Shown in pieces: positions 15,285-43,774 of a stretch of 64,000 nucleotides of DNA. The position numbers and the translations under genes are program-made. The stretch lies in NCBI GenBank assembly GCA_003249035.1, contig QBMK01000002.1, forward strand, positions 285,457-349,456, given 5' to 3'. How positions within the stretch are numbered: position 1 is the first letter of the stretch; every line of letters begins with the position of its first letter. Source of the DNA: Pseudanabaena sp. Its GTDB lineage: Bacteria; Cyanobacteriota; Cyanobacteriia; Pseudanabaenales; Pseudanabaenaceae. The notes beneath the pieces were generated by a model. It was given only the letters and a program-made list of their open reading frames with translations, did not search any database and was not told the origin of the DNA.

Positions 15285-16850
15285 ATGATTAGTCAAATTT
15301 CACCAGTTAGTATCGATCCGCAGTTTTTATCAAGTCCCCATGTCATGCTATCGACTCTTCAAGCACTACGCCAGAAAGTTGAAAGCGAAGGAGCCATTAC
15401 CTTTAACAAATGGCAATCTGGCATTAATCGGGCTGAATTTCTTCCAAGCGCCCTGAATCTTGCTCAATACCTTGCATTACGTCAATATGACCTCCGCGAA
15501 CTCCAATCCGCATTAATGCCTTGGGGGTTGTCTTCGTTAGGAAGGATTGAAGCAAGGGTATCACCCAATCTTGATGCTGTTATTGCGGCGCTAGAAGTAA
15601 TGTGTGGCAACTACTCCACGGAAAATTTTCACCGTCAACCACTAGAATCCTTTTTTGAAGGTAATCGTTTACTTCTCCAGCATACCAAAGAATTATTTGG
15701 GATAGCCAGTCCCCATCGGCGGGTCAGAATTATGGTTACATTGCCCACGGAAGCTGCTACTGACTATGAGTTAGTACGCGAAATTATCCGACGGGGCGCA
15801 AACTCTGTGCGAATTAACTGCGCCCATGACAATCCAGAAATATGGGAAAGCATGATCGCTCATGTTCGTCGAGCAGCGCAGGAGAATGGAACATCTTGTA
15901 AAGTGATGATGGACTTAGCAGGACCCAAGATCCGCACAGGAGAAGTTCTTAAGCCACCCGATCGAAAGCGGGTATTTCGAGGGGATCGCATCTTGCTCTC
16001 GCGGTGTGCACCTAAATCTGCAAGTAAATTGTCCACAGTCGAGGCGATCTCATCACCTATAGACCAATTCCAAATTTGCTGTACGGTTCCCGAAATCCTC
16101 GATTTATTAGTGGTTGATGCACCCGTATATATTGACGATGGCAAGATTCGGACTCGTGTGGTTGACACCCAATATCGATTGCCAGATGGGCAATTAGGTC
16201 TGTTGCTTAAAGTAACCCATGCGAGCCCTAAAGGAGTCAAACTTCGTCCCGAAAAAGGATTGAACTTTCCCAAAACAATTTTATCGCTCAGTCCTCTTAC
16301 GGCAAAAGATTTAAGCGATTTGGATTTTGTCGCCAGTCACGCAGATATTATTGGTTACTCCTTTGTGCAGCAACCTGCTGATATTGATTTACTTCAACAA
16401 GAGTTAAGTCATCGCTTAGATGGAAGATCTCCTAGCCCCGCGATTGTAGCAAAGATTGAAACGGCGATCGCGGTTTCCAATCTTCCAGAATTAATCATCC
16501 ATGCAGCAAGTAAACAATCATTTGGTGTGATGATTGCTAGAGGCGACTTAGCCGTTGAAATCGGATATCAAAGGTTGACAGAGATTCAAGAAGAAATTCT
16601 CTGGATTTGCGAAGCAGCGCATGTGCCCGTGATCTGGGCTACGCAAGTGCTAGAAAGTTTGGTCAAAGATGGAGCGCCTTCACGCGGAGAGATGACCGAT
16701 GCGGCTATGGCTGAACGTGCCGAGTGCGTGATGTTAAATAAAGGTCCTTTTATTGCCGAAGCCATCACTATTCTCGATGATGTCCTAACTAGGATGGAAG
16801 CACACCAGTCGAAAAAAACGCCCCAATTGCGAGCATTACATTCTTGGTAA
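15285..16850 (+). CDS. Atypical pyruvate kinase-like protein with N-terminal extension
   Basis: 521 residues. Residues 1-135 are an α-helical extension absent from ordinary pyruvate kinases. From about 145 the TIM barrel and B domain follow: RIMVTLPTEAATDYELV, the substrate-binding arginine region NSVRINCAHD, MMDLAGPKIRTGE, KGLNFPKT, the catalytic-lysine strand AIVAKIETAIAVSNL, IARGDLAVEIG, and PVIWATQVLESLVKDGAPSRGEMTD. The usual C-terminal allosteric domain is missing; the protein stops about 35 residues after the barrel. Likely phosphoenolpyruvate-linked activity, unproven. It is distinct from the canonical pyk at 35527-36954. Confidence 0.82.
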   Translation: MISQISPVSIDPQFLSSPHVMLSTLQALRQKVESEGAITFNKWQSGINRAEFLPSALNLAQYLALRQYDLRELQSALMPWGLSSLGRIEARVSPNLDAVIAALEVMCGNYSTENFHRQPLESFFEGNRLLLQHTKELFGIASPHRRVRIMVTLPTEAATDYELVREIIRRGANSVRINCAHDNPEIWESMIAHVRRAAQENGTSCKVMMDLAGPKIRTGEVLKPPDRKRVFRGDRILLSRCAPKSASKLSTVEAISSPIDQFQICCTVPEILDLLVVDAPVYIDDGKIRTRVVDTQYRLPDGQLGLLLKVTHASPKGVKLRPEKGLNFPKTILSLSPLTAKDLSDLDFVASHADIIGYSFVQQPADIDLLQQELSHRLDGRSPSPAIVAKIETAIAVSNLPELIIHAASKQSFGVMIARGDLAVEIGYQRLTEIQEEILWICEAAHVPVIWATQVLESLVKDGAPSRGEMTDAAMAERAECVMLNKGPFIAEAITILDDVLTRMEAHQSKKTPQLRALHSW

Positions 16851-16906
16851 GTGAACAGTAATTACATCAATTTTCATTAATACACCTAGCTTTTGAGTAT
16901 CTTCTT

Positions 16907-17101
16907 ATGACTACAAAATCAATCAATATCGAAGTCGATCTTCAAAATCACAACTCAGTATCATCCCTACATCAGTCGATTCAGGATGAATTGAATAAGT
17001 ATGGAAAACCACTTAATTGGATTGTGGTTGATGCTGACAAAGAACGCCAGATAGTTCATGTTAAGGCGATTTATCCCACCCATTCGGATAATTCCCAGTA
17101 A
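16907..17101 (+). CDS. Small protein of unknown function (64 residues)
   Basis: Codes for a short acidic α/β-looking protein (SINIEVDLQNH, LHQSIQDELNKYGKPLNWIVVDADKERQIVHVKAIY) with no signal or membrane segment. It sits 56 bases after the pyruvate kinase-like gene and about 100 bases before the P-type ATPase, all on the same strand. It could be a small regulator or accessory of the transporter, but that is only positional. I do not recognise a family. Confidence 0.55.
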   Translation: MTTKSINIEVDLQNHNSVSSLHQSIQDELNKYGKPLNWIVVDADKERQIVHVKAIYPTHSDNSQ

Positions 17102-17209
17102 TTGACTATGATAATCTCCTAAGAGTGGTTTGTTTGACAAGATCAAAGCGTAACAATCTGGCATAATCTTGGAGCTTTTTCCTAATTCGAGTTTTGATTT
17201 GTGACTATC

Positions 17210-19948
17210 ATGAAACCTAGCCCCGAAAATAAAACCATATTTAGGAGTATGTGGGGATGGAAAGGAAAATCAGCTAGTCTAAATCAGACTGCCATTGCTG
17301 CTTCGCCATCGCTACCGACAAAACTAGTTCAGTTTGCTCAAGACAATGTGGAAACTGTATTGAAAACGCTCAATACATCTCCCGAAGGGTTAAGCGAGCT
17401 ACAGTCCGATCTTCGACTAGACAAAATTGGGCTAAATGAAATTGCCCATGAAAAACCTCCAAAGTGGTACGTCCAACTTTTGAAGACGTTCCAAAATCCA
17501 TTGGCAATCCTATTGATTATTTTGGCAGCGATCGCTCTATTAACGGGGGATATCAGAGCCGCCGTGATTATTATTAGCATGGTGATTTTTAGTGTGATCC
17601 TGCGCTTTTCGCAAGAATTTCGCTCCAGTGAGGCGGCAGAAAAACTACGGGAAATGGTACATACAACCGCCACAGTGAGACGGAAAGATCCCCGTAAAGA
17701 TATTTCTCCGAGTTTAGCTCAGGATATGGGATTAACCCTCAATCTTGATGTTCCCGATCGCTACGAAATTCCAATTAAATATTTAGTTCCTGGCGACGTG
17801 GTTTTGCTGGCTGCTGGCGATATGATTCCGGCGGATGTGCGATTAATTGCCGCGAAAGATTTGTTTATAAGCCAAGGCGCTTTAACTGGAGAGTCGTTGC
17901 CAATTGAGAAACAGTCCAATTTGACCAGCGATCAATTACAAATCCAAAATCCGTTGGAGTTAGCAAATCTTTGTTTCTTAGGCACAAACGTAATTAGCGG
18001 TACAGGAACCGCTGTTGTCGCCGAAACAGGTAGCAATACTTACTTGGGTTCTCTGGCAAAAACTGTGGTCGGGCGCAAGACCATGACCAGTTTTGATAAG
18101 GGGATCAACGATGTCAGCTTAATGCTTCTCCGCTTCATGTTAGTGATGGCTCCTGCTGTTTTCATGATCAATGGTTTGATCAAAAAGAACTGGGGAGAGG
18201 CTTTCTTTTTTGCCCTCTCGGTGGCGGTAGGATTAACCCCTGAGATGTTGCCGATGATCGTTACGGCAAACCTAGCTCGGGGAGCGATCGCTATGTCAGA
18301 AAAAAAGGTGATCGTCAAGAATATTGATTCCATTCAAAACTTTGGGGCAATGGATATTCTCTGTACCGATAAAACAGGGACGCTTACTCAAGACAAGATC
18401 GTTTTGGAGATGCACTTAGATGTTTATGGAGAAGAATGCGAAGAGGTTTTGGAACTTGCCTATTTGAATAGCTTTTACCAAACTGGTTTAAAGAATTTGT
18501 TGGATGTGGCAGTCTTAGAACATTATGAACTCCACGAATCTTTAAATGTTGAAAGTAAGTTCTGTAAAATTGATGAAATTCCCTTTGATTTTGTCCGCCG
18601 TCGCATGTCCGTTGTAGTTGAAGAAGAAAATCACCACCACGAACTAATTTGTAAAGGCGCGGTTGAAGAAATTCTTCAAGCCTGCACGCAGTTCAAAGCA
18701 AACGATTTGATTCAGCCCCTTGATGATTTATTTCGCGAAAAGGTCACCGAGTTAAATCAAGAACTTAACGAAGATGGGCTTAGGGTGATTGCCGTCGCCT
18801 ATAAAGAATTACCGCTCGACCAGCGCAGTTATTCCCTAGACGATGAACAGAACTTAATTCTAATTGGTTTTATAGCCTTTCTCGATCCCCCCAAAGAATC
18901 AGCATTCAAAGCGATCGCCGCTCTCAACAAAAGTGGCGTACAGGTAAAAGTGTTAACTGGCGACAACCAAATCGTTACTCGCAAAACCTGTAAGGACGTG
19001 GGTTTATACGTTCATCACATCCTATTAGGCAGCGAGATTGAAGCCCTATCCGATGAGGCACTTTCAGATCTTGCCGAAACCACTACTATTTTTGCCAAGC
19101 TGTCTCCTCTACAAAAATCGCGAATTATTCAAGTCCTACGCAGTAAAGGGCATATTGTTGGATTTATAGGCGATGGTATCAACGATGCTGCTGCATTGCG
19201 AGAAGCTGACGTTGGCATTTCTGTAGATACCGCCGTGGATATTGCCAAGGAATCTGCTGACATCATTTTGTTAGAAAAAAGTTTGATGGTATTGGAAGAA
19301 GGGCTACTCGAAGGCCGCAAAACTTTTGGCAATATTGTTAAGTACATCAAGATGGGTACGAGTTCTAACTTTGGCAATATGTTTAGCGTTTTAGGTGCTA
19401 GCGCATTGCTGCCATTTCTGCCGATGCAGCCAGTGCAAATCTTGTTTAATAATCTACTTTACGATTTTTCGCAAACGGGAATTCCTTTTGACAATGTGGA
19501 CAAAGAATATCTGACCAAACCGCGCAAATGGCAAGTAGGTGATATTCAGAAATTTATGCTTTACATTGGTCCGATGAGTTCAATTTTTGACTATGCGACC
19601 TTCGCTTTGATGTGGTTTGTGTTTGGAGCCAATACAGTTGAGCATCAAGCCTTATTTCAAACAGGTTGGTTTGTTGAAAGTCTCATGACCCAAACTTTAA
19701 TTGTTTACATCATTCGTACCCCAAAAATCCCCTTTTTGCAAAGCCGTCCGTCTCTCCCTATGCTATTAGTGACTCTAACGATTATGGCAGTAGCACTGTG
19801 TCTGCCTTTCTCACCGATTGCCCCTATATTAGGATTCGTTCCTCTACCCCCGCAATACTTCCTATGGCTGGGATTAATTTTGTCTAGTTATTGCATACTT
19901 ACACAATTGATGAAAACTTGGTTCGTCAAAAAGTATGGTTATAACTAA
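17210..19948 (+). CDS. mgtA: Magnesium-translocating P-type ATPase (MgtA/P3B type)
   Basis: 912 residues from the ATG at 17210; a GTG at 17201 is an alternative start. Order of elements: N-terminal cation-ATPase domain (SPEGLSELQSDLRLDKIGLNEI), membrane helices near 95-130, actuator loop TGES (SQGALTGESLPIEKQS), transmembrane VGLTPEMLPMIVTANLA, phosphorylation site CTDKTGTLTQ with aspartate at about 387, TGDN, hinge GDGINDAAALREADVGIS, and a six-helix C-terminus with NLLYDFSQTGIPFD. The VGLTPEMLPMI and NLLYDFSQ blocks are typical of MgtA/MgtB Mg2+ importers. No leader or riboswitch was recognised upstream. Confidence 0.88.
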   Translation: MKPSPENKTIFRSMWGWKGKSASLNQTAIAASPSLPTKLVQFAQDNVETVLKTLNTSPEGLSELQSDLRLDKIGLNEIAHEKPPKWYVQLLKTFQNPLAILLIILAAIALLTGDIRAAVIIISMVIFSVILRFSQEFRSSEAAEKLREMVHTTATVRRKDPRKDISPSLAQDMGLTLNLDVPDRYEIPIKYLVPGDVVLLAAGDMIPADVRLIAAKDLFISQGALTGESLPIEKQSNLTSDQLQIQNPLELANLCFLGTNVISGTGTAVVAETGSNTYLGSLAKTVVGRKTMTSFDKGINDVSLMLLRFMLVMAPAVFMINGLIKKNWGEAFFFALSVAVGLTPEMLPMIVTANLARGAIAMSEKKVIVKNIDSIQNFGAMDILCTDKTGTLTQDKIVLEMHLDVYGEECEEVLELAYLNSFYQTGLKNLLDVAVLEHYELHESLNVESKFCKIDEIPFDFVRRRMSVVVEEENHHHELICKGAVEEILQACTQFKANDLIQPLDDLFREKVTELNQELNEDGLRVIAVAYKELPLDQRSYSLDDEQNLILIGFIAFLDPPKESAFKAIAALNKSGVQVKVLTGDNQIVTRKTCKDVGLYVHHILLGSEIEALSDEALSDLAETTTIFAKLSPLQKSRIIQVLRSKGHIVGFIGDGINDAAALREADVGISVDTAVDIAKESADIILLEKSLMVLEEGLLEGRKTFGNIVKYIKMGTSSNFGNMFSVLGASALLPFLPMQPVQILFNNLLYDFSQTGIPFDNVDKEYLTKPRKWQVGDIQKFMLYIGPMSSIFDYATFALMWFVFGANTVEHQALFQTGWFVESLMTQTLIVYIIRTPKIPFLQSRPSLPMLLVTLTIMAVALCLPFSPIAPILGFVPLPPQYFLWLGLILSSYCILTQLMKTWFVKKYGYN

Positions 19949-19964: not shown

Positions 19965-20572
19965 ACCAATTTGGTATCTTAGGAAGCCTTAGCAAGGCGC
20001 TTAAGCATAAGCCTGATAAAGCTAAGATAAATTCTCTCATTAAAAGTCTTGTCAAAGTTTTTGACAAGACTTTTAATGAGATTCATCCAAGCATTGGAAA
20101 AACCTCTTTGTGTGAGAGTTTCAAAGACCTCGTTTTTCATAATGAGAATTGCTGCTTGTAGGAGTAAAAAACTTTGGAATCAACTCTTGCATTACAGGTA
20201 TTTTTTGTGGCTTGTGATTCGACGATTAATAAGGTTGTCCACTTAGGCTTTTTTTTGGCTTGTTTTCTCACCTGTGTATGCAATGCTGTAATGATTTCCT
20301 TTAATATTCCTGATGTTCGCCATACTTGTAATGCCAATACACTGTTGAATATGGGGGCAAATCCTTTTGTAGGTCTACCCAATTACATCCATTCTTGAGT
20401 TACTAAAATATGCCGTCTAATATTTGCCGTTTTGTCCATTTTGCTGGACATGTCTTCTTCTTTGGCAACAGAGGTTCGATAATCTCCCACTCTTGATCGC
20501 TTAGGCTACTTGTATATCCTATGTTTGATAACTTTTTCTACTCTTCCTAAGAAACCAAATGGGTTCTATAAA
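19965..20572 (-). mobile_element. Decayed IS5-type insertion sequence, copy 2
   Basis: Inverted ends are still visible: AGAACCAATTTGGTATCTTA at the left and its near reverse complement (CCTAAGAAACCAAATGGGTT) at the right. On the minus strand, pieces of transposase can be read. The N-terminus is LSDQEWEIIEPLLPKKKTCP (about 20400-20515), then GILKEIITALHTQVRKQAKK and TLLIVESQATKNTCNARV (20137-20382). Stops and frame changes, and an element much shorter than a full IS, show it is dead. It lies just upstream of the phosphoketolase cluster. Confidence 0.75.
20035..20081. repeat. Perfect hairpin with 22-bp arms inside the IS5-type remnant
   Basis: TCTCATTAAAAGTCTTGTCA continues with AA, loop GTT, then the exact reverse complement. 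It is not present at the corresponding place in the other remnant, so it may be a later insertion or a local inverted duplication. Confidence 0.85.
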
Positions 20573-21317: not shown

Positions 21318-23744
21318 ATGATAGCAACACCTGACAAGCTCACTTCTATTAGTGCCTTCGGAATAGCTAGGTCTACGGTTGAGGGCTCACCATTAAGTAA
21401 CGAAGAACTCCACAAGATGCATGCATTCTGGCGCGCTGCAAACTATTTGGCTGTTGGGATGATTTACCTTCGAGACAACCCCTTACTTAAAGAGCCCCTC
21501 AATCCCGAACAAATTAAGCTGCGATTATTAGGGCACTGGGGTTCTAGTCCCGGTATCAGCTTTCTCTACACCCACTTAAATCGAGTCATTAAGAAGTTTG
21601 ACCAAGATATGCTGTTCATGGTTGGTGCAGGACATGGCGCCCCTGGATTTCTGGGACCTTGTTACCTCGAAGGAACCTATTCTAGGTTCTACTCCAAATG
21701 CAGGGAAGACGAAGCTGGAATGAAACAATTCTTCAAGCAATTCTCTTTTCCCGGCGGCGTTGGCAGTCACTGCACGCCTGAAACTCCTGGTTCTATTCAT
21801 GAGGGTGGTGAACTAGGTTATAGTCTCTCTCATGCTTATGGCGCAGCTTTTGATAATCCAAATTTGATTGTAGTGTCCATGCCCGGTGATGGTGAGTCCG
21901 AAACAGGACCTCTCGCCACCTCTTGGCATTCCAATAAATTCATCAATCCTATTCGGGATGGTGCGGTACTCCCTGTGTTGCACCTGAATGGCTACAAAAT
22001 TAATAACCCCACGATTCTTTCTCGGATCAGCCATCGAGAACTCAAGGCATTATTTGACGGCTACGGGTATGAGCCCTACTTTGTGGAAGGTTCCGATCCC
22101 GAATCTATGCACAATGCAATGGCTGCAACTCTCGATCTATGTATATCATTAATTCACAACATTCAGCAGGAAGCCCGTTCTAGCGGCGTTGCCACCCGTC
22201 CTATATGGCCGATGATTGTGATGCGAACTCCCAAGGGTTGGACAGGTCCTGAGACAGTAGATGGTCATAAAGTTGAGGGGTTCTGGCGAGCCCACCAAGT
22301 ACCGATGGGTGGAATGCACAGCAATCCCGATCACCTGCGTAAGTTAGAAGAATGGATGCGCAGTTACAAACCCGAAGAACTGTTTGATTCCAACGGTACC
22401 TTGCTTCCTGAGATTAAAGCAATGGCACCGCTCGGTGACAAACGGCTCGGTTCCACGCCCTACGGCAATGGTGGATTATTGTTGCACGAGTTAAACATGC
22501 CCGATTTCCGGCAGTATGGGGTGCCTGTAGAGAAGCCTGGCACAATTGAAGTTGCGAACACTCAACCCTTGGGCGTTTTCTTGCGGGATGTCATGAAAAA
22601 CAACATGACTAATTTCCGTGTATTTGGACCGGACGAAAACACCTCTAACAAATTGGGTGCTGTTTACGAAGTCAGCAAGAAATTCTGGATTGCAGACTAC
22701 CTGCCAGAAGATGAAGATGGTGGCGAGCTGTCTCCCGATGGTCGCGTGATGGAGATGTTGAGCGAGCATACTCTAGAAGGCTGGTTGGAGGGTTATATAC
22801 TCTCCGGACGACATGGATTCTTCTCCACCTACGAGTCTTTTGCCCATGTGATTGATTCCATGTTCAACCAGCATGCCAAGTGGTTGTCGATCTGCAATCA
22901 CATTCACTGGCGTGAGGAGGTTGCTTCCCTAAACCTGCTGATTACCTCAACGGTTTGGCGTCAAGATCATAATGGGTTTACCCACCAAGATCCGGGCTTC
23001 ATTGATGTTGTGTTGAATAAGAGTCCAGATGTGGTTCGTATTTATATGCCGCCGGATGTCAACACATTGCTGTCGGTGGCAGACCACTGCTTGCGCAGTA
23101 AGAATTACATCAATGTGATTGTCTGTGACAAGCAATTGCACTTGCAGTATCACGACATGGATGGGGCAATTAAGAACTGCACCAAGGGGATCGATATCTG
23201 GGAGTGGGCTAGTAACGATCTAGGAGTCGAGCCAGATGTGGTACTGGTTACAGCGGGAGATATTCCCACGCAGGAATCGCTGGCGGCATCCTGTTTGTTG
23301 CGGGAGCATTTCCCCGATCTGAAGATTCGTTTTGTCAACGTAATCGATTTATTCAGGTTGCAGCCTCAATCAGAGCATCCACATGGCTTAAACGATCGCG
23401 ACTTTGACAGTCTCTTCACCCCTGACAAACCAGTCATCTTCAACTTCCATGGTTACCCTTGGCTCATTCACAGGCTCACCTACCGCCGTACCAACCACCA
23501 GAACATCCACGTGCGCGGCTACAAGGAAGCAGGTAACATCAATACCCCGTTAGATCTGGCGATTCAGAACCAGATCGATCGCTTTAGTATTGCCATTGAT
23601 GTAATTGACCGAGTTCCCCAACTCAAGATTGCAGGTGCTCACATTAAGGAAATGCTTAAAGACGAGCAAATTGCTTGCACTAACTATGCCTACGAACATG
23701 GCATCGATCGCCCAGATGTCGTGAACTGGAGGTGGCCTTACTAA
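21318..23744 (+). CDS. xfp: Phosphoketolase (xylulose-5-phosphate/fructose-6-phosphate)
   Basis: 808 residues, the usual length. A thiamine-diphosphate enzyme that cleaves xylulose-5-P to glyceraldehyde-3-P plus acetyl-phosphate, or fructose-6-P to erythrose-4-P plus acetyl-phosphate. Signatures: [20 protein letters not shown] near 75-94, GAGHGAPG near 108, [20 protein letters not shown] near 142-161, [20 protein letters not shown] (ThDP binding), and [19 protein letters not shown] near residue 500. It is the first gene of the carbon-catabolic cluster. Its product acetyl-phosphate is the substrate of the acetate kinase encoded at the other end, and erythrose-4-P or sedoheptulose units can be handled by the transaldolase. 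Confidence 0.97.
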
Positions 23745-23827: not shown

Positions 23828-26884
<3,057 letters not shown>

Positions 26885-26961: not shown

Positions 26962-27426
26962 ATGAATGATGACAAATTCAAGTTTGAAGTATCAGAAGTG
27001 ATAAAAGCACTGATAGCAGAGGAAAAATTAACATCGATCGTCCAGATGTTTACAAAAATTGACTCTGATCGAGATGGCAAAATCGAGATTGATGAATATC
27101 TCAACTTTGCATTAGCAAAGGAGAAAATACGTCTGACCAGAATGTTTGAAGCTGCAGATAATGACAAGGACGGATGTATTGACTTTGAAGAGTTTGCGGT
27201 TGCAAATGAACCAAACTTCAACATCCTCAAAAAGTTCCGCGAACTAGACCTCGACAAGAATGGTCTACTTTCGCTTGAGGAAGCGATTAACATTGCCGAT
27301 CGCCTAGTCTTACCAGTCAATACCGAACAAATAAAAACCATTATCAAACAAGTAGATCACGATGGTGACGGACAAATCACCTACTACGAATATCTAGAGG
27401 CGATCGCCAACATCGGGTTTCAGTAA
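26962..27426 (+). CDS. Calmodulin-like protein with four EF-hands
   Basis: 154 residues, almost entirely EF-hands. Four 12-residue loops: DSDRDGKIEIDE (34-45), DNDKDGCIDFEE (66-77), DLDKNGLLSLEE (96-107) and DHDGDGQITYYE (132-143). All keep acidic residues at positions 1 and 3, D or N at 5, glycine at 6 and glutamate at 12, so all four should bind Ca2+. No signal peptide, so it is a cytoplasmic sensor or buffer. It lies between eno and gapN, 77 and 43 bases away, inside a cluster whose transaldolase and acetate kinase carry their own EF-hand pairs. Partner enzymes are not known. Confidence 0.92.
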   Translation: MNDDKFKFEVSEVIKALIAEEKLTSIVQMFTKIDSDRDGKIEIDEYLNFALAKEKIRLTRMFEAADNDKDGCIDFEEFAVANEPNFNILKKFRELDLDKNGLLSLEEAINIADRLVLPVNTEQIKTIIKQVDHDGDGQITYYEYLEAIANIGFQ

Positions 27427-27469: not shown

Positions 27470-29131
27470 ATGATTCCCCCAATCGTCACCTCATATGCCA
27501 CTAGAGAGAAAATTCAAGATAGGGTTGAATCCCTTTTCCCAACAGCAGACAAAATCCCAGATGCCTTCCGCATTCAAACTCCTGTCAACCAAAGGCAATA
27601 TCTGATTGATGGAGAACTTCGTTACTGGGATGGTGACGTTGAAGAGGTGATTTCTCCAATTCACATCCAGACCGATGAAGGATTGGTTCCGGCTACGGTT
27701 GGGTATTTCCCCATGCTTTCCGAGCAGGAGTCCTTAGAAGCTCTAAACGCTGCCGTTGCAGCCTACAGACGAGGTCGCGGGCTGTGGCCAACGATGTCTG
27801 TTGGGCAGCGCATCGATCGCGTGCAGGAGTTCTCCTGTCGTATGAAGGAAAAACGAGATGAGGTCGTTAAGCTCCTCATGTGGGAAATCGGCAAGTCCTA
27901 TAAGGATTCGCAAAAAGAGTTTGACCGTACCGTTGGTTATATCGAAGATACGATTGCTGCCTTGAAGGATTTGGATCGGGTGTCGTCCCGGTTTGAAATT
28001 TCTGAAGGGGTAATCGGACAAATCCGGCGGGCACCGCTTGGGGTGGTACTTTGCATGGGACCATCCAACTATCCACTAAACGAAACCTTCACGCTGCTGA
28101 TTCCCGCATTGATTATGGGCAATACGGTGGTGATGAAGCTGCCCCGTCCTGGCGTGCTGCCCTGCGCCCCTTTGCTGGAAGCATTTCAGCAAGCCTTTCC
28201 CCCTGGTGTAGTGAATACAGTGTATGGCAGTGGCCGGGTGGTAACTCCACCGTTGATGGCATCGGGCGAGGTCAGTGCCTTTGCCTTCATTGGGTCGAGT
28301 CGGGCAGCCAATAGCCTGGAAAAGCAACACCCCAAGCTCAACCGACTCCGCACAGTTTACGGATTGGAGGCAAAAAATCCCGCTATTATCCTGTTCGATG
28401 CCGATCTGGATCTCGCGGTGAAAGAATGCATTCTGGGGACACTTTCTTACAACGGGCAAAGATGTACGGCGCTGAAGATTTTATTCGTCCATAGCCAGAT
28501 TGTCGACGCATTTTTGGAGAAATTGTCGAAGGAGATCTCCAACCTAGTGATTGGTATGCCCTGGGATGATGGAGTAACGATCACTCCTTTGCCCGAAGCT
28601 GGTAAGACTGAGTATTTTACGGATTTGGTAGACGACGCGATTCGCGAGGGCGCATACGTAGTAAATTCAGGCGGAGGCACAGTGAATGCAACCTTCTTCT
28701 ATCCGGCAGTGGTTTATCCTGTCACCCCAGCTATGCGGATATACTCCGAAGAACAGTTTGGTCCAGTGATTCCAGTCGTGCCCTACGATGATATCGAAAC
28801 CCCCATCAACTACATCGTCAATTCTAACTATGGGCAGCAGGTAAGCATCTTTGGGCAGGATACTGATACGATCGCCGCTCTGATCGATCCGCTAGTCAAT
28901 CAAGTCTGTCGGGTCAACATCAACAGCCAATGCCAGAGGGGACCCGATACCTTCCCCTTTACAGGTCGGAAGGATTCTGCTGAAGGCACATTGTCCGTGA
29001 GCGACGCTTTGCGATCGTTCTCGATTCGGACATTGGTTGCCGCTAAAGAAAACCACTTAAACAAGTCTTTGATTACTCAAATCGTTAAAGAACGAAAATC
29101 TAATTTCTTATCAACCGACTTTATACTCTGA
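27470..29131 (+). CDS. gapN: Non-phosphorylating glyceraldehyde-3-phosphate dehydrogenase (NADP-type)
   Basis: 553 residues, aldehyde dehydrogenase superfamily, ALDH11 type. It oxidises glyceraldehyde-3-P directly to 3-phosphoglycerate with NADP+, skipping the ATP step of pgk. Visible: the cofactor/substrate region LGVVLCMGPSNYPLNETFTL, VVMKLPRPGVLP, GSSRAANSLEKQHPK, the general-base region YGLEAKNPAIILFDAD, and the catalytic-cysteine block LSYNGQRCTALKILFVH near 325-341. Near the end are INSQCQRGPDTFPFTGRKDS and a serine/asparagine-rich tail. About 60 residues at the N-terminus precede the fold start. Its neighbours eno and pgi support a glycolytic role. Confidence 0.88.
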   Translation: MIPPIVTSYATREKIQDRVESLFPTADKIPDAFRIQTPVNQRQYLIDGELRYWDGDVEEVISPIHIQTDEGLVPATVGYFPMLSEQESLEALNAAVAAYRRGRGLWPTMSVGQRIDRVQEFSCRMKEKRDEVVKLLMWEIGKSYKDSQKEFDRTVGYIEDTIAALKDLDRVSSRFEISEGVIGQIRRAPLGVVLCMGPSNYPLNETFTLLIPALIMGNTVVMKLPRPGVLPCAPLLEAFQQAFPPGVVNTVYGSGRVVTPPLMASGEVSAFAFIGSSRAANSLEKQHPKLNRLRTVYGLEAKNPAIILFDADLDLAVKECILGTLSYNGQRCTALKILFVHSQIVDAFLEKLSKEISNLVIGMPWDDGVTITPLPEAGKTEYFTDLVDDAIREGAYVVNSGGGTVNATFFYPAVVYPVTPAMRIYSEEQFGPVIPVVPYDDIETPINYIVNSNYGQQVSIFGQDTDTIAALIDPLVNQVCRVNINSQCQRGPDTFPFTGRKDSAEGTLSVSDALRSFSIRTLVAAKENHLNKSLITQIVKERKSNFLSTDFIL

Positions 29132-29178: not shown

Positions 29179-30792
29179 ATGGATATCAGGGAACTCTGGC
29201 AACGCTACGAAGACTGGCTTTATTACCACGAAGGTCTGGACTTGTATTTGGACGTGAGCCGGATGCGGTTTGACGACGCGCTGATTGACACCTTGAAGCC
29301 TAAGTTTGCAAGGGCGTTTAAGGATATGGAGGCACTGGAGGGAGGGGCGATCGCCAACCCCGACGAAAATCGCATGGTCGGTCACTACTGGCTGCGCGAT
29401 CCCGATCGTGCGCCTTCCCAGTTAAGAAAGGAAATCGTAGATACGCTGAATGAGATCGAAGCCTTTGTCCAGAAGGTTCACGATGGCACGATACATCCAC
29501 CGGAAGCACCCAAATTTACCGACATTCTCTCGGTTGGGATTGGCGGATCTGCTTTAGGACCGGAGTTTGTTGCGGAAGCTCTGGCTCCAGATTTCCCATC
29601 CATGGGAATTCACTTCATCGATAACACCGATCCGGCAGGCCTCGATCGCGTTCTCAATCGGCTGAAAGCTCGGCTCAAAAGTACTCTGATTATCATTACT
29701 AGCAAATCCGGCGGCACTCCCGAAACTCGGAATGGGATGCTAGAGGTGAAGCACGCCTACGAGCAGCAGGGCTTACATTTCCCGTCTCACGCCGTTGCCA
29801 TCACGGTTCCCGGCAGCAAAATGGACGAACTGGAGAGGATGGAGGGCTGGTTAGCCGAGTTTCCCATGTTTGATTGGGTGGGAGGGCGCACCTCGGAAAT
29901 GTCGGCAGTAGGACTGCTATCAGCGTCTCTGCTGGGCATTGACATTCGATCGCTGCTAGCAGGTGCCAAGGAAATGGATGCGGCAACTCGCGAGTCCGAT
30001 CTTAAGCGCAATCCTGCCGCTCTATTAGCCCTTGCCTGGTACGCTGCTGGAAATGGCAAAGGCGAGAAAGATATGGTGATGCTACCTTACAAAGACAGTC
30101 TGTTGCTGTTTTCCCGTTACCTGCAACAGTTGGTGATGGAGTCGCTGGGTAAAGAGAAAGACCTGGACGGTAACACGGTTCATCAGGGGATTGCCGTATA
30201 CGGGAATAAAGGCTCCACCGACCAGCACGCCTACGTGCAACAGCTTCGAGATGGGATTCCCAACTTTTTTGCTACATTTATTGAGGTGCTGGAAGACCGG
30301 GAGGGAACGTCGATCGAAGTTGAGCCAGAAGCGACTTCTGGGGATTTTCTCTCTGGCTTACTGATGGGAACGCGACAGGCACTGTATGAAAACCATCGGG
30401 ACTCGATTACCGTCACCATTCCCCAGGTCAATCCTCTTACTGTCGGCGCTTTGATTGCTCTTTACGAGCGAGCCGTCGGACTCTATGCATTCCTCATTAA
30501 CGTCAATGCCTATCACCAACCAGGGGTAGAAGCCGGGAAAAAAGCTGCCGCATCGGTATTGGATTTACAACGGAAAGTTCTGACAACGCTGAAAAATGAG
30601 AGTCAACCCTTGACACTGCTAAAGCTGGCAGAAAAAGCCGGAGCTGACGACCAAATTGAAATTGTTTACAAAATCGTGCGCCATTTAGCGGCGAACAAGC
30701 GGGGAGTAAACTTGCAGGGCGATCGCGCCAAACCATCGATTCTCTTGGTTTCTGCTCAGCAAGAAAACGTTTTTCTGGAGGTTGCTTTATGA
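29179..30792 (+). CDS. pgi: Glucose-6-phosphate isomerase
   Basis: 537 residues. Interconverts glucose-6-P and fructose-6-P, the latter a phosphoketolase substrate. Signatures: [19 protein letters not shown] near 115-133, [15 protein letters not shown] near 174-188, [19 protein letters not shown] near 234-252, [36 protein letters not shown], and [17 protein letters not shown]. The stop overlaps the start of the next gene by four bases (ATGA at 30789-30792), indicating translational coupling. Confidence 0.97.
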
Positions 30793-31799
30793 AAGTTGCT
30801 TTTTTTAGCACCAAATCCTACGATCGCCAATCCTTTGAAGCGGCGAATGTCAACTATCTTCACAAACTGACTTTTTTTGAAGTCCAACTTAACTGCGATT
30901 CGGCGATGCTGGCAGCAGAATTTCCAGTCGTTTGTATGTTTGTTAACGATATTGCGGATGCGGCAACCCTTGATATGCTGGCTTCTCACGGGACTCGACT
31001 GCTAGCATTGCGATCTGCCGGATTCAACACCGTCGATTTGAAACGCGCAGCCGAGTTAGGGATCAAAGTGGTACGAGTGCCTGCCTATTCTCCCTACGCC
31101 GTTGCCGAACATGCTGTTGGCTTAGTGCTGACGCTGAACCGCAAGCTCTATAGGGCATACAACCGCGTTCGAGATGATAACTTCTCTCTAGAAGGCTTAA
31201 TAGGATTCGATATACATGGCTGTAAGATAGGTGTAATTGGCACGGGCAAGATCGGCATGGTATTTGCCCAAATTATGCAGGGGTTTGGTTGCTCGTTGCT
31301 GGGTTACGATGCTTATCCGAATGCTCAATTTGAAGCGATCGGCAATACTAGGTATGTTCCACTTCCAGAACTCTTAGACAAGTCTGATATTGTCTCGCTT
31401 CATTGTCCGTTGTTGCCTGAAACGCATCATTTGATTGATGCAGAGGCGATCTCTCAAATGAAACAAGGTGTAATGCTAATTAACACCAGTCGTGGTGGTC
31501 TGATTGATACTTCTGCTGTAATTGGAGGAATTAAGTCAGGCAAAATTGGCTACCTTGGCATTGATGTATACGAACAGGAAGACGAACTTTTCTTTCAGGA
31601 TATGTCTGATACCATCATTCAAGATGATACCTTTCAGCTCCTGCAATCTTTTCCCAACGTTGTAATTACAGCGCATCAAGCATTCTTAACCCGCAATGCC
31701 CTAGAAGGAATTGCCGACACTACCCTGTCTAATATCGCTGATTTTGAGAGAGGTCAGCCTTTGAAAAATGAGGTTGCATATAGCGGAAGTCAGAAGTAG
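30789..31799 (+). CDS. D-2-hydroxyacid dehydrogenase, probably D-lactate dehydrogenase
   Basis: 336 residues; NAD-dependent, of the D-LDH/formate dehydrogenase fold. Rossmann motif [19 protein letters not shown] near 147-165. The catalytic triad positions are the arginine in NTSRGGLID, the glutamate in [13 protein letters not shown] and the histidine in [10 protein letters not shown]. The pattern [19 protein letters not shown] and the YEQEDELFF segment are typical of bacterial LdhA, which reduces pyruvate to D-lactate and regenerates NAD+ in fermentation. It overlaps pgi by four bases. The stop codon lies in a GC-rich hairpin at 31796-31824. Confidence 0.88.
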
Positions 31800-31919: not shown

Positions 31920-36954
<5,035 letters not shown>

Positions 36955-36960
36955 AGGATA

Positions 36961-37656
36961 ATGTCTAAACTAATTTTGACTCGCCACGGACAGAGCCTTT
37001 GGAACGCCGAGAATAAATTTACCGGATGGGTAGATGTTCCATTGAGCGAACAGGGTCGAGCAGAGGCAACAATCGCCTCCTGCAAACTCAGAGGTTATCG
37101 AGTTCGAGTTTGCTTCACAAGTATGCTGTTCCGGGCAATTGAAACCGCAGTCATCATCTTGACGGAAGTAGATGACATTTGCGACGGCAGAATTCCCATC
37201 ATCAAACATGATATCGATGATGAAGACTGGCATGGCTGGGACAAATACAACGGCGATCCAGAACAGGAACTTCCCGTTTATACTGTTCCCGCTCTAGATG
37301 AACGTTATTATGGCGATCTGCAAGGTTTAAATAAAGCCGAAACCGCTGCAAAATTTGGTCAGGATCAGGTGCAGCTATGGCGACGATCCTACGATACGCC
37401 TCCACCGGGTGGCGAAAGCCTAGAAGATACGGTAAAGCGCACCGTCCCTTTCTTTTGCGATCGCGTTCTCAAGCATCTGATGGCGGGGGATAACGTGCTG
37501 ATTGCCGCCCATGGAAACTCTCTCCGTTCCATCATTAAGCAATTGGAAAATTTATCCGAGGAGGAGATTGTGAAAGTTGAATTAGGAACCGGAGTCCCAA
37601 TGGTATACGACATAGATGCCCAGGGGCAAGTCACTAGCAAAGTCACTCTGAACTGA
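36961..37656 (+). CDS. gpmA: 2,3-bisphosphoglycerate-dependent phosphoglycerate mutase
   Basis: 231 residues, histidine phosphatase superfamily. The phospho-histidine motif LTRHGQSLWNAENKFTGWVD is at 6-25, followed by ERYYGDLQGLNKAE, PPPGGESLEDT and the second histidine in IAAHGNSLRSIIK. It interconverts 3- and 2-phosphoglycerate. The region between the first two motifs is longer and more divergent (VDDICDGRIPIIKHDIDDEDWHG) than in the E. coli enzyme. It follows pyk by six bases and should be in the same operon. Confidence 0.94.
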   Translation: MSKLILTRHGQSLWNAENKFTGWVDVPLSEQGRAEATIASCKLRGYRVRVCFTSMLFRAIETAVIILTEVDDICDGRIPIIKHDIDDEDWHGWDKYNGDPEQELPVYTVPALDERYYGDLQGLNKAETAAKFGQDQVQLWRRSYDTPPPGGESLEDTVKRTVPFFCDRVLKHLMAGDNVLIAAHGNSLRSIIKQLENLSEEEIVKVELGTGVPMVYDIDAQGQVTSKVTLN

Positions 37657-38007: not shown

Positions 38008-39870
38008 ATGGCAACGATTATCGAAAAATTTCCCGCTCGAGCCCTAGCCGAAGCGGATCTGCGTCCCAGAGGGCGAGTCTTTCCCAGTCCTGTCACTTGG
38101 CGTGACCAAATTTTGTATCAAATTCTGCCAGATCGTTTCAGCGATGGTCGGGAGGCTCAACGCCCGTTATTCGATCGCAGCCATCCCGAACATTACAGAG
38201 CGAGTAACAAAGCGGACTGGATGGCAGCCGGAAACAAATTCAATGGCGGGACGCTAAAAGGCATTGCCAGCAAACTGGACTATTTGCAGAACTTAGGCAT
38301 CACAACTCTTTGGGTAAATCCGCCCTGGAAGCAGCGCGTCGATCTACAGACCTATCACGGGTATGGCATCCAGAATTTTTTGGACATCGATCCGCGCTTT
38401 GGAACTCGTCAGGATTTACGGGATCTGGTGGATGCGGCGCACAATCGCGACATTTACGTAATTCTAGATGTGATTTACAACCACAGTGGTAGCAACTGGT
38501 ATTACCAGGATGAGGGGGATGGTAGTCCCAAGGAAAAAATGCCCTACCGCTTCTCCCCCCCGTACCCGATTCATGGCTGGCGTTCTGCTAAGGGAAACAG
38601 CATTCCCGAACCGGTGTCGATGGATGATGGTGTATTTCCAGAGGAATTTCAGAATCCTGACTGGTACAACCGCGCTGGCATGATTACCCAGTGGGAAGCG
38701 TCGGGATGGGAAGATCCGATGAATGCGTCTGTGGAGTTCCGGCGGGGCGACTTTTTTGAATTGCGCGACCTTAACCTAGAACGAGAAGAAGTCATTGCAG
38801 CTCTAGCACGGGCTTACCAGTATTGGATTGCTTTAAGCGATTGTGATGGCTTTCGAGTTGATGCGGTCAAGCACGTCTCTCCCCTAGCTTCACGCAAGTT
38901 CTGCGATGCAATTCACGGCTATGCTCAATCGATCGGCAAAGATAATTTCCTGCTAGTCGGCGAACTGACTGATGACAGTATGGTGCGAGGTTATCTGGAT
39001 ATTTTTGGGCGCAATCTAGATGCAGTGCTGGATATTGTTGTTGCCCCCAACCGACTACCTGCCGTGGTCAAAGGCTTGACCAATCCAGTCGAGTTCTTCA
39101 GCCTGTATGATGAGAAAACCTTACCCGGCAGCTATCGGCAGTTGGGCATTTACCATGTTGCAGTATTAGATGACCACGATATGTCATCTCGTCCTCGCAA
39201 GGAGAGATTTGCCGCACACAGCGACCATTTGCCCCACTGTTACGAACAGGTGGCTCATGCAGTGGGGATGATGTTGACCATGCCCGGCATTCCCTCTATA
39301 TACTACGGCACCGAACAAGCGCTTGATGGCTCTCAGGACTATCACGACTACACCATCGAACCCAAACACGAATATATAGATCGTTATATTCGAGAATGTA
39401 TGTTTGGTGGCAAGTTTGGAGCATTCGGCACGGAAGGTTGCCACTTTTTTAATCCGGATCACCCGACCTATTTACGCATTGCCGCGATCGCTCGCATCCG
39501 CAATCGTCAAGATAGCGTCGGCAAAACCCTCCGTCGGGGTCATCTTTATCTCAGGGAGACTTCGTTTTGCGATCGCTCTTTTGCCGTTCCCCCAGCAGGC
39601 GAAGCGATCGCCTGGTCGCAGGTGCTCTACACGACTGAAGTCTTAATGGTACTTAACACAAACGGTTTAGAGCAACGGGGTGCGTTTGTCAACGTGGATC
39701 GTAGCTTGCACCCTATTGGTTCCACCATGACGATTCTGTACCAGAGCAATTGGAGCGATAGCCAACTTCGTAATCCCCCTCGAACTAAAACGTTAATGGT
39801 TCAGGAGTGTCAGGGGCGAACAGCAGTGCGGATTGACTTACCCCCTTCTGGGATGGCGATTCTGTCCTAG
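38008..39870 (+). CDS. GH13 alpha-amylase family glucan hydrolase
   Basis: 620 residues, no signal peptide, so cytoplasmic. Conserved GH13 regions: DVIYNHSG (region I, near residue 155), the nucleophile region DGFRVDAVKHV near 287-297, the acid/base region LLVGELTDDS near 313, and the region around VLDDHDM (transition-state aspartate) near 389. The N-terminal ILYQILPDRFSDG is typical of cyclomaltodextrinase- or maltogenic-type enzymes. It probably acts on glycogen-derived maltodextrins, feeding the glycogen phosphorylase route. Exact specificity is not deducible. Confidence 0.88.
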   Translation: MATIIEKFPARALAEADLRPRGRVFPSPVTWRDQILYQILPDRFSDGREAQRPLFDRSHPEHYRASNKADWMAAGNKFNGGTLKGIASKLDYLQNLGITTLWVNPPWKQRVDLQTYHGYGIQNFLDIDPRFGTRQDLRDLVDAAHNRDIYVILDVIYNHSGSNWYYQDEGDGSPKEKMPYRFSPPYPIHGWRSAKGNSIPEPVSMDDGVFPEEFQNPDWYNRAGMITQWEASGWEDPMNASVEFRRGDFFELRDLNLEREEVIAALARAYQYWIALSDCDGFRVDAVKHVSPLASRKFCDAIHGYAQSIGKDNFLLVGELTDDSMVRGYLDIFGRNLDAVLDIVVAPNRLPAVVKGLTNPVEFFSLYDEKTLPGSYRQLGIYHVAVLDDHDMSSRPRKERFAAHSDHLPHCYEQVAHAVGMMLTMPGIPSIYYGTEQALDGSQDYHDYTIEPKHEYIDRYIRECMFGGKFGAFGTEGCHFFNPDHPTYLRIAAIARIRNRQDSVGKTLRRGHLYLRETSFCDRSFAVPPAGEAIAWSQVLYTTEVLMVLNTNGLEQRGAFVNVDRSLHPIGSTMTILYQSNWSDSQLRNPPRTKTLMVQECQGRTAVRIDLPPSGMAILS

Positions 39871-39947: not shown

Positions 39948-41123
39948 ATGTCAAAAAATCTACTAGATCAACTTCGAGAAATGACTATCGTCGTCGCGGA
40001 TACAGGCGATATTCAAGCTATTGAAAAATTTAAGCCCCGCGATGCAACGACGAATCCATCTCTCATTACAGCCGCAGCCCAAATGCCAGAGTATCAGGAA
40101 ATTGTGGATGAAACGCTGCTAAAGGCAAAGAAAGATTCTGGATCGGGCGCAACCGAAGCCCAAATTGTTTCCCTCGCATTCGATCGCCTCGCTGTCTCCT
40201 TTGGCAAAAAGATTCTAGAAATCGTGCCGAAGCGCGTTTCAACTGAGGTTGATGCGCGGCTCTCCTATAATACGGAAGCAACGATCGCGAAAGGACGTTA
40301 TCTGATCTCTGAATATGAGAAAGCCGGGATTCATAGCGATCGCGTGCTGATCAAAATTGCTTCTACCTGGGAGGGCATTCGTGCTGCCGAAGTCTTGGAA
40401 AATGAGGGCATTCATTGTAATCTGACACTGCTGTTTGGCTTGCATCAGGCGATCGCTTGTGCCGAAGCAGGCATAACGCTTATTTCTCCTTTTGTTGGGC
40501 GCATTCTTGACTGGCACAAAAAAGATACTGGACGAGACTATTCTTCATTCGAAGATCCAGGTGTATTATCGGTCGCTCAGATTTACAATTATTACAAGAA
40601 ATTCGGCTACAAAACCGAGGTAATGGGAGCCAGTTTTCGTAACATTGGCGAAATCACCGAATTGGCTGGCTGCGATCTGTTGACCATTTCTCCCAACTTG
40701 CTGACACAGCTACAGGAGACTGTTGAAGAACTGCCCCGTAAACTCGATCCAGCGAAGGCAGCAACAATGGAGATTGAAAAGCTTTCCCTCGACAAGGCGA
40801 CCTTCGATCGAATGCACGCCAACGATCGCATGGCTTCCGAAAAACTCAACGAAGGCATTAAAGGCTTCAGTAAAGCACTGGAAATGCTGGAAAGTTTCTT
40901 AGCAAGCCGTTTGGCAAGATTAGAAAGTGGCGCTAAAGTCGGCATTGCTGCTACCAAGATTTTCCAGAGCTACGACCTAGATGGCGATGGCTTTATCTCC
41001 AGAGAGGAGTGGATGGGTACGGATGCCGTGTTTGACGCGCTCGATCGCGATCGGGACGGCAAAATCACCCCCGAAGAAATGGAGTCAGGCTTAGGCGCGA
41101 TTCTGCAAATGGCTGATGCTTAA
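39948..41123 (+). CDS. tal: Transaldolase with C-terminal EF-hand pair
   Basis: 391 residues. Residues 1-320 are a full transaldolase: [18 protein letters not shown] near 32-49, the Schiff-base lysine in [16 protein letters not shown] near 132-147, [18 protein letters not shown], and [11 protein letters not shown]. It transfers dihydroxyacetone units between sugar phosphates. The tail holds two canonical EF-hands, [12 protein letters not shown] (343-354) and [12 protein letters not shown] (366-377), ending [11 protein letters not shown]. From memory, EF-hand-tailed transaldolases occur in other cyanobacteria. The same EF-hand module recurs inside the next gene, which starts 11 bases downstream. 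Confidence 0.95.
40965..41111 (+). repeat. EF-hand module, copy in transaldolase
   Basis: 147 bases encoding 49 residues. They align without gaps to 41324-41470 in ackA: by my count 115 of 147 bases and 40 of 49 residues are identical. Most base changes are synonymous. Confidence 0.9.
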
Positions 41124-41134: not shown

Positions 41135-42520
41135 ATGAAAATACTGATACTCAATGCGGGTTCTAGCAGCCAAAAGAGCAGTCTCTTTGAGATAGCAGGC
41201 GATCGGCTTCCCTCTGCCCCCCCAGAGCCACTTTGGGAAGCAACTGTAGATTGGACGCACAAACAGGGCTTTGCAGAAATCAAAGTCAAAACAGCGGCAG
41301 GGGAGGTGTTGGTCGATATTTCCCAGAGTCATGATTTAGACGGCGATGGCTTTGTTTCCCGTGAGGAATGGATGGGGTCTGACGCAATGTTTGATGCAAT
41401 CGACATCGATCGCGATGGCAAAATCTCTCCCGCAGAAATGGGGTCAGGCTTAGGAGCGATTCTTCAGATGGCAAAGGAAGAAAATTCAACGCAATCTCGC
41501 TCAAAAGTCATCACTCATCTATTGGAAACGCTCTGGCAAGGCAAAACCGCTGTCATCGAGCATCCCTCTAAGATCGACGCAGTGGGGCATCGGGTGGTGC
41601 ATGGTGGACAGGAATATTGCGAAACGGTCATAGTAACTGATGCGGTGAAAGCCGCGATCTCTGGGCTCTCTGCCCTAGCTCCGGCTCACAACCCAGCCAA
41701 CCTAGAAGGTATTGAAGCAGTCGAGAGTATCTTGGGATCTGAAGTGCCGCAGTTTGCTGTTTTTGACACCGCCTTTCACAGCCATCTGCCGGATGTCGCC
41801 GCCATCTATCCCGGTCCGTTCGCTTGGGCAGAGCGAGGCATTCGTCGCTACGGGTTTCACGGCATCAGCCATCAATACTGCGCTCACCGTACCGCTCAAA
41901 TCTTGGATCGAGATCTTAAAGACCTACGGCTGATTACTTGTCATTTAGGTAATGGTTGTTCTCTTGCTGCTATTCGCAATGGTCAAAGTATTGATACCAC
42001 CATGGGATTTACTCCTTTAGAAGGCTTGATGATGGGTTCTCGATCTGGTTCCATTGACCCCAGTATCCTAATTTACCTAATGCGTCAGGAAGGTTACACT
42101 GCCGATCGCTTAGACCGAGAACTAAATAAAGAATCTGGTTTACTGGGAATCTCTGGGGTATCTGCCGATTTGCGATCTGTTTTAGCGGCGCTCGCCGAGG
42201 GCAATTCTAGAGCGCAATTGGCATTAGATATTTATATTCATCGTCTGCGCTCATGCCTCGGCTCCATGCTTATGAGTTTAGGTGGTGTAGATGCCTTGGT
42301 TTTCACGGCTGGCGTGGGAGAAAATGCGGCGATCGTGCGTGAACTTGCCTGTCAATCTCTGGAGTTTCTGGGATTAAAGCTAGACTTGGCAAAAAATCAA
42401 AATCACCCCATAGATATAGATATTGCGGCAACTGATTCTAAAATACGAGTATTAGTGATTCATACTCAAGAAGATTGGGCGATCGCTCAATCTTGCTTTC
42501 ATTGTATCTCCACCCAGTAA
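41135..42520 (+). CDS. ackA: Acetate kinase with internal EF-hand insertion
   Basis: 461 residues, about 50 longer than usual. Converts acetyl-phosphate plus ADP to acetate plus ATP. Family motifs: LILNAGSSSQKSSLFEI at the start, VGHRVVHGGQEY, FDTAFHSHLPDVAA, RRYGFHGISHQY, CHLGNGCSLAAI, MGFTPLEGLMMGSRSGSIDP and FTAGVGENAAIVRE. Between the first β-hairpin (ending about residue 61) and the downstream helix lie two canonical EF-hands, DLDGDGFVSREE (67-78) and DIDRDGKISPAE (90-101). They are part of a 49-residue block 40/49 identical to the tail of the preceding transaldolase. Catalytic residues look intact, so calcium regulation of activity or assembly is plausible. Confidence 0.95.
   Translation: MKILILNAGSSSQKSSLFEIAGDRLPSAPPEPLWEATVDWTHKQGFAEIKVKTAAGEVLVDISQSHDLDGDGFVSREEWMGSDAMFDAIDIDRDGKISPAEMGSGLGAILQMAKEENSTQSRSKVITHLLETLWQGKTAVIEHPSKIDAVGHRVVHGGQEYCETVIVTDAVKAAISGLSALAPAHNPANLEGIEAVESILGSEVPQFAVFDTAFHSHLPDVAAIYPGPFAWAERGIRRYGFHGISHQYCAHRTAQILDRDLKDLRLITCHLGNGCSLAAIRNGQSIDTTMGFTPLEGLMMGSRSGSIDPSILIYLMRQEGYTADRLDRELNKESGLLGISGVSADLRSVLAALAEGNSRAQLALDIYIHRLRSCLGSMLMSLGGVDALVFTAGVGENAAIVRELACQSLEFLGLKLDLAKNQNHPIDIDIAATDSKIRVLVIHTQEDWAIAQSCFHCISTQ
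41324..41470 (+). repeat. EF-hand module, copy inserted in acetate kinase
   Basis: The partner of 40965-41111, in the same orientation, 359 bases away. All calcium-ligand positions of both loops are kept in both copies. Confidence 0.9.
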
Positions 42521-43097: not shown

Positions 43098-43745
43098 TTA
43101 AGTATTAATTTGAGCAAGAAGCCAGCCTTGACAAAGGTTGTGCAGATTAGACCAACCACGCCAGAGGACTTGAATCCCAATGGGAGATTTCCGACGATGT
43201 TCAAGATATCCGCCAAGGAAAGCAATCGATTCGATAGCCCAAGCAACAGTTAAAACAGGAGGAGATTTTGGGAATCTGGCTTTTAAGACCTGAATTTGGA
43301 GAGGAGAAAGAACCTCAACCGCAGGAGCATCAGGCTGATTACGATGGAGATAAGTAACCTGTAAAAGTTCGACCGCACAGACACTTAAAAAGCCTAATAA
43401 AGTCTTCATCCCTTCAGCCGCCAGTCTATAGTGCTCACACTGACAGCCAGACTTAAAGATTTTATGAAAATCTTCCACTCGCCAGCGGTAAGTATACCAA
43501 CGCAAAATCTTAATCGCCGTTTCTAGGTCTTCTACAATTTCGGTGGTCAGCAGCATCCAGTCTAAAGAGGTTTCACCTTCAGGACAATCGATTTCAGTTG
43601 CATAAACAGCATAAACTTGTAATGAATCGCGATTGTCAAAACGATAGGGAACACGCAGTTGAACCTTAGAGAATCGCACTGCTAATTTCGCAATACGGGC
43701 TTTACGTCCTACATTCAGCAGGTTAAATTTAAAATAAGGTATTTT
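43098..43745 (-). mobile_element. IS4-type transposase, C-terminal fragment
   Basis: A frame open from about 43745 to 43098 encodes roughly the second half of an IS4/Tn5-type transposase: GRKARIAKLAVRFSKVQLRV, then WMLLTTEIVEDLETAI, then the catalytic-glutamate region WYTYRWRVEDFHKIFKSG, then LQVTYLHRNQPDAP. The N-terminal half carrying the first aspartates is missing, cut off where another IS fragment begins at about 43760. It should be inactive. Confidence 0.85.
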
Positions 43746-43774
43746 TATTTAAGCCGCGAATTCAAAATAGCCAA

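Follow-up and report, generated by a model that had tools for sequence, protein, structure and literature searches.

Why should a free protein with four EF-hands be encoded in the middle of a run of carbon-catabolic genes in a cyanobacterium, and what could calcium have to do with the use of glycogen there? Calcium transients are well recorded in cyanobacteria, to our knowledge few cytosolic calcium sensors are known in them, and no established calcium target was found in their central carbon metabolism. The locus considered here belongs to a stretch of 64,000 nucleotides of a Pseudanabaena genome (the window; the genome is G000 in the sample described below), and its gene cluster offers three concrete, testable candidates for calcium proteins: the free calmodulin-like protein (CML), a transaldolase (Tal) and an acetate kinase (AckA), the last two with EF-hand pairs of their own (Table 1). 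The best explanation, which we hold tentatively and which falls somewhat short of being probable, is that the three would form a calcium-responsive module of dark catabolism.

Table 1. Features of the window, followed by related loci elsewhere (named by locus or contig).
Feature	Position	Strand	Remarks
Second pyruvate-kinase-like gene and Mg2+-translocating P-type ATPase	15285-19948		upstream of xfp
Inverted repeat of 20 pairs, TCTCATTAAAAGTCTTGTCA, loop of 7	20035-20081		1.2 kb before xfp
xfp, phosphoketolase	21318..23744	+	apparently foreign copy
pgm, phosphoglucomutase	23858..25492	+	
eno, enolase	25586..26884	+	80% to Elainella (G109)
CML, free 154-aa four-EF-hand protein	26962..27426	+	ORF with ATG start; Pfam; family alignment A1; purifying selection
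CML EF loop 1, DSDRDGKIEIDE, residues 34-45	27061..27096	+	canonical ligands
CML EF loop 2, DNDKDGCIDFEE, residues 66-77	27157..27192	+	canonical ligands
CML EF loop 3, DLDKNGLLSLEE, residues 96-107	27247..27282	+	canonical ligands
CML EF loop 4, DHDGDGQITYYE, residues 132-143	27355..27390	+	canonical ligands here; commonest degenerate loop in the family
CML C-terminal tail YLEAIANIGFQ, residues 144-154	27391..27423	+	conserved even with loop 4 degenerate
Aldehyde dehydrogenase with GapN-type GQRCTA motif	27470..29131	+	
pgi, glucose-6-phosphate isomerase	29179..30792	+	
D-2-hydroxyacid (lactate-type) dehydrogenase	30789..31799	+	
glgP, glycogen phosphorylase	31920..34445	+	sequence reading; recurs in homologous clusters
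gap1, glyceraldehyde-3-phosphate dehydrogenase	34454..35530	+	sequence reading and homologous neighborhoods
pyk, pyruvate kinase	35527..36954	+	sequence reading and homologous neighborhoods
Phosphoglycerate mutase-type protein (gpmB; histidine phosphatase superfamily)	36961..37656	+	
Alpha-amylase family protein	38008..39870	+	
tal, transaldolase with C-terminal EF-hand pair (NF008965/PRK12309 type)	39948..41123	+	
Tal EF loop at residue 343	40974-41009		
Tal EF loop at residue 366	41043-41078		
ackA, acetate kinase with inserted EF-hand pair	41135..42520	+	
AckA EF-hand insert, residues 60-113 (54 residues)	41312..41473	+	copy of tal EF segment
AckA EF loop at residue 67	41333-41368		
AckA EF loop at residue 90	41402-41437		
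Two broken transposase-like frames	43098-44266	opposite strands	directly after ackA; named by eye
1908-aa protein with repeated glycerophosphodiester-phosphodiesterase-like segments	58196-63922		several DxNxDG calcium-type loops, by eye
Second Pseudanabaena CML	L029:9938-10399 (G000:C19:24738-25199)		77% identical; four intact loops
CML and Na+/Ca2+-exchanger pairs	L039:9724-11532 and L042:9890-11659	same strand	two genomes, one genus

The free EF-hand protein and its family

The first-pass annotation of the window had described a reading frame of 154 residues with four canonical EF-hands and no signal peptide, placed between enolase and gapN amid carbon-catabolic genes, and the present results bear this description out. 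Pfam recognizes four EF-hand stretches in CML (EF-hand_7, E=1.8e-28; EF-hand_1, E=5e-25), the ligands are canonical in all four loops, and the N-terminus (MNDDKFKFEVSEVIKALI) is charged and, read by eye, contains no signal peptide. The neighbors are eno, at 77 bp, and, at 43 bp, the gene of the aldehyde dehydrogenase with the GapN-type motif, within a same-strand run that extends from xfp (21318) to ackA (42520). The canonical 12-residue loops found by Pfam and the flanking helices of the structure model place the protein in the EF-hand superfamily; no NCBIfam family scored above its cut-off. The model (pLDDT 88.5, pTM 0.58) contains eight helices, with a continuous long helix (residues 43-65) joining loops 1 and 2, and the arrangement of its lobes is uncertain.

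CML is a member of a separate cyanobacterial family of four-EF-hand proteins, and not calmodulin proper. In a sample of the class comprising 390 cyanobacterial genomes, a match was obtained in 18 and a protein of the family in 15, two copies being present in the Pseudanabaena genome and none among 25 congeners, a sporadic distribution; three other matches (L024, L026 and L028) are calmodulin-type domains that begin large proteins, and L025 is a further, weak match. An alignment query of named genomes gave 11 cyanobacterial loci, with Elainella, Pegethrix, Kaiparowitsia and Drouetiella among the named carriers, and added Oscillatoriales RM2_1_1 (L046); a contig scan with the single CML protein as query gave no match. 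The proteins of the 17 family loci have 152-154 residues, a loop register of 32-30-36 wherever the loops are readable, and a C-terminal GFQ (GLQ in G203). All 16 homologues of CML conserve its length and each retains three or four canonical loops, and thus the reading frame is not due to chance; moreover, each of the six pairs that allowed dS to be computed has a dN far below it (0.117 vs 0.659 between the two Pseudanabaena copies), which indicates purifying selection. The second of these copies is near a DUF1345 gene and has no glycolytic neighbors. Carriage of CML on a plasmid, phage or viral contig was searched for and gave no match, and a recent transfer from a eukaryote was rejected, no close eukaryotic match being found among solved structures.

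Judged by a strict pattern, seven members (G125, G186, G227, G077, G237, G233 and G089) have a degenerate loop 4, RM2_1_1 has a degenerate loop 3 and G203 a degenerate loop 1; all four loops are intact in both Pseudanabaena copies and their nearest relatives. A single clade (support 100/99), within which the tree gives no branching order, unites both Pseudanabaena copies with G006, G149, G163, Elainella (G109) and RI_101 (G231); this clade of seven sequences holds the copies linked to xfp, and every member has four canonical loops.

These properties would also suit a different role, in which CML would be a cytosolic buffer or homeostasis protein, blunting calcium entry when the energy for export is low, and its seat in the cluster would reflect a shared need and not the regulation of enzymes. 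The protein is acidic and poor in methionine (3 residues in the window copy, 1-3 in the nearest clade, with a net charge of -14 to -18), has four loops to offer, and adjoins a Na+/Ca2+-exchanger gene in one genus, g58; furthermore, Streptomyces CabB and calerythrin, which are four-EF proteins too, have been described as buffers (PMC10574481). However, conservation of the C-terminal tail equals or exceeds that of the loops (mean column identity in the family alignment 0.76 vs 0.69-0.74), and the tail has been kept, with the rest of the protein, in the seven members that have a decayed loop 4; this speaks for a contact surface and not for ion capacity alone. Nor does a buffer account for the EF pair that AckA received as a copy. 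A buffering role is, on balance, somewhat unlikely.

Origin of the cluster and placement of the gene

Three xfp genes are carried by the Pseudanabaena genome. That of the cluster is 91-92% identical to the copies of Drouetiella (G089) and G149, members of two other cyanobacterial families, with which it groups (support 99), and 75% identical to the copy of its genus, with which the C11 xfp groups (support 100); the genus copy of enolase, to which the cluster copy is 57% identical, is present in the same genome. The cluster genes have a GC of 0.45-0.52 and a GC3 of 0.43-0.56, and the pst genes downstream 0.40-0.45 and about 0.33, respectively. With foreign xfp and eno beside native copies, and with this higher GC, the cluster looks to have been acquired horizontally, apparently from other cyanobacteria. 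The GC of CML itself is 0.394, unlike that of its neighbors, and therefore CML may have joined the cluster separately. No transaldolase with EF-hands appears among the 20 congeners listed, and the content of the cluster is highly variable between genomes. The two broken transposase-like frames that follow ackA may mark where the acquired cluster ends. As for the rest of the window, the Mg2+-translocating ATPase upstream of xfp is missing in 5 of the 7 congeners tested, and its contig carries a 69% paralogue of it as well. A promoter and terminator scan of the window gave results at or below chance, promoter-like sites falling below the chance expectation, and neither RNA elements nor tRNAs were found in it.

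It had been proposed to check whether the gene always stands next to xfp clusters, and random placement of its orthologues had been named as evidence against a calcium sensor that switches glycogen fermentation. CML lies beside xfp at 3 of the 17 family loci, in genomes of three different families (G000, G006 and G149). In both of the other genomes it directly follows xfp on the same strand, with the order xfp-CML-pgi-glgP in G006, and in G149 with two other genes, which weakly resemble a phosphate-binding protein of the window, then an ldhA-like gene, glgP and gpmB. The remaining 14 loci, among them that of the 77% paralogue carried by G000, have no link to an xfp cluster, and most of the xfp clusters examined lack CML. 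A fixed linkage thus fails, and so does plain randomness, xfp-CML being present in two other families: the placement is neither. By rough arithmetic, about 0.04 loci with CML at <=5 kb from xfp would be expected by chance among the 17, against three seen, a figure to be read with the proviso that the events may not be independent and that the three loci may represent fewer of them. In the genus g58, CML lies 5′ of the Na+/Ca2+-exchanger gene on the same strand, at 94 bp in G077 and 123 bp in Drouetiella; the exchanger was identified by Pfam in G077, and the Drouetiella gene clusters with that of G077. Beyond this exchanger in one genus, the unlinked copies share no consistent theme among their neighbors, which include genes of the ATP-grasp/succinyl-CoA-ligase type, aconitase B, an aldehyde dehydrogenase, ABC-3 and an ion channel.

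Such a pattern could also have been left by a passenger, that is, by a mobile calcium-responsive gene with its targets elsewhere, which landed in a cluster of variable content. The sporadic presence of CML, its absence from the congeners, the unlinked loci and its distinct GC would all follow from this, but not the fact that in two further families it immediately follows xfp on the same strand, nor the excess over the chance expectation, and we consider the passenger quite unlikely.

The EF-hand pairs of transaldolase and acetate kinase

The transaldolase of the cluster is a full member of the EF-hand transaldolase family NF008965 (729.3 bits; cut-off 550). AckA passes the acetate kinase model (TIGR00016/PF00871; 468.8 bits, cut-off 293.4), to which its EF insert is extra: residues 45-114 match the C-terminal part of the NF008965 model, and over 155 bases the insert is 79% identical to the EF segment of tal (40959-41113). 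Residues 60-113 are absent from the seven orthologues examined, and in the nearest of them, G088, which is 76% identical to AckA apart from the insert, residues 59 and 114 follow one another directly. When the 390 genomes were queried with the insert and its flanks, an acetate kinase with the insert appeared among the matches listed only in G000; nearly every genome gave one match, which fits Tal alone, and four (G186, G271, G306 and G331) gave two. With 21% of bases differing between the two copies, an assembly artefact is ruled out. The pair is intact, and the dN of 0.106 against a dS of 1.59 between insert and tal segment shows, as far as such a comparison of sequences goes, constraint on the sequences compared and not necessarily since the insertion, because a recent insertion from the Tal of another species would look alike. 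At the protein level the insert resembles other Tals almost as closely as it does the cluster Tal, and synonymous sites are near saturation, and hence its donor may have been either the cluster Tal or that of another species.

The count of eight canonical loops in the cluster (four in CML, two in Tal and two in AckA) thus stands, and the concentration of EF loops is stronger than had been claimed, the AckA pair being a copy of that of Tal. The calcium switch, suggested earlier as a novel type of control over bacterial metabolism, is a candidate at most, and the EF-hand transaldolase is an already named family, present in about half of the cyanobacteria. The EF-hand Tal is named and widespread; the EF-hand acetate kinase, of which no description was found in the literature searched, is new. 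Of the features of the window, the insert may be the most novel, and it constitutes a natural before-and-after experiment, as close orthologues that lack it (G088) allow the effect of the added EF pair to be measured directly. The EF-hand Tal is present in all 15 of the genomes bearing CML, against 187 of the 375 others (Fisher p=4e-5, shared ancestry ignored), an association that is weak within single families (0.08 and 0.11).

In both enzymes the loops are 23 residues apart, with a short linker of 11 residues; the AckA pair matches lanmodulin weakly (PDB, E=4e-4), and the AckA core aligns to solved acetate kinases (2iir, 1tuu and 1g99) unbroken by the insertion in its N-terminal part. That these pairs, possibly together with CML, serve for structure or docking and assemble the enzymes into a complex, with calcium as a constant structural ligand or with another metal, would agree with the linker, the lanmodulin match and the unbroken core, but is very improbable in view of the ordinary calcium pattern kept in all four loops, and we know of no docking complex of the Tal-AckA type.

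A proposed calcium-responsive module and its known relatives

The calcium-responsive module of dark catabolism would require a series of steps: (i) CML would be a cytosolic calcium-binding protein that entered the genome with the acquired cluster or joined it later; (ii) the cluster would serve the use of glycogen in the dark or at low energy, by way of glycogen phosphorylase, glycolysis, and the phosphoketolase-acetate kinase route to ATP and acetate; (iii) upon loss of light, a fall in oxygen or a shortage of nitrogen, cytosolic calcium would briefly rise; (iv) calcium would fill the loops of CML and change its shape; (v) the helices and the conserved C-terminal tail of CML would contact an enzyme or another target, with a change in flux; (vi) and simultaneously, calcium would act on the built-in EF pairs of Tal, at the transaldolase step, and of AckA, at the acetyl-phosphate step. 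The binding of calcium in the cell, the partner of CML, the effect on flux, and the reading of a dark-onset signal by the three proteins are what we infer from the genes.

Counted in favor of this module are the four canonical loops throughout the clade of seven sequences, xfp-CML in two other families, the intact EF pair copied from tal into ackA, the EF-hand Tal in all 15 carriers of CML in the sample, the exchanger linkage in g58 and the conservation of the tail. To these are added two observations from Anabaena: a calcium transient upon the shift from light to dark (PMC4284465), and the joint lowering of talB, pyk1, gap1 and xfp (all2563-all2567) in the table of SigC-regulated genes (PMC4390870). 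Counted against it are the 14 loci elsewhere, with the paralogue of the same genome among them, and the many xfp clusters without CML; the few methionines and the strongly negative charge, unlike the methionine-rich target pockets of calmodulin; the uncertain arrangement of the lobes; the scarcity of promoter-like sites, which gives no sign of a single operon; and the weakness of the association with EF-hand Tal inside single families. On account of the conserved tail and of the EF pair copied into ackA, regulation is modestly favored, with the buffer and the passenger fitting much of the same evidence. A broader form of the proposal is unlikely, although worth stating: a transferable calcium-regulated module, composed of a diffusible EF-hand sensor and of EF pairs that passed from transaldolase to the adjacent acetate kinase, in which calcium transients at the onset of darkness would decide how much glycogen carbon goes to ATP production by phosphoketolase and acetate kinase and how much to glycolysis and the pentose phosphate pathway.

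Among known systems, the best PDB matches of CML by both sequence and fold search are the calmodulin and calcineurin B of eukaryotes, like CML soluble proteins of about 150 residues with four canonical EF-hands, with about 22-30% identity in the fold matches; the global superposition on these is poor (TM about 0.3), the lobes being flexible, and no viral structure matched CML below an E of 0.001. The loops of calmodulin are spaced 36-37-36 and those of CML 32-30-36, and CML further differs in its few methionines, which make target binding through calmodulin-style methionine pockets unlikely, and in its conserved GFQ tail. The calerythrin and Cab proteins of actinobacteria (Streptomyces), of which calerythrin and CabB have been described as buffers (see above), are likewise free bacterial four-EF proteins, whereas the Streptomyces relatives compared have a register of 47-37-34 and about 30% identity. 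Another cyanobacterial sensor, CSE (asr1131) of Anabaena, tied to the balance of carbon and nitrogen (PMC7065334), is set apart by its description as a small protein with two EF-hands. Cyanobacterial calmodulin-like proteins have been reported in general terms (Schaffer, Iyer and Aravind, 2020; PMC7016017), so the kind is already known; those are domains within larger fusion proteins and closer to calmodulin, whereas CML is free and has a register of its own, and neither the free 32-30-36 family nor its catabolic linkage was found in the literature searched. Three large frames of this kind are those at L024, L026 and L028 (from nt 1381-1480 on), in which the calmodulin-type four-EF domain is the N-terminal part of a conserved cyanobacterial protein of ~800 aa, and looks nearer to calmodulin than CML does. 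Finally, the EF-hand transaldolase (NF008965, PRK12309) contains the same module as AckA, which in AckA has become an internal insert of another enzyme.
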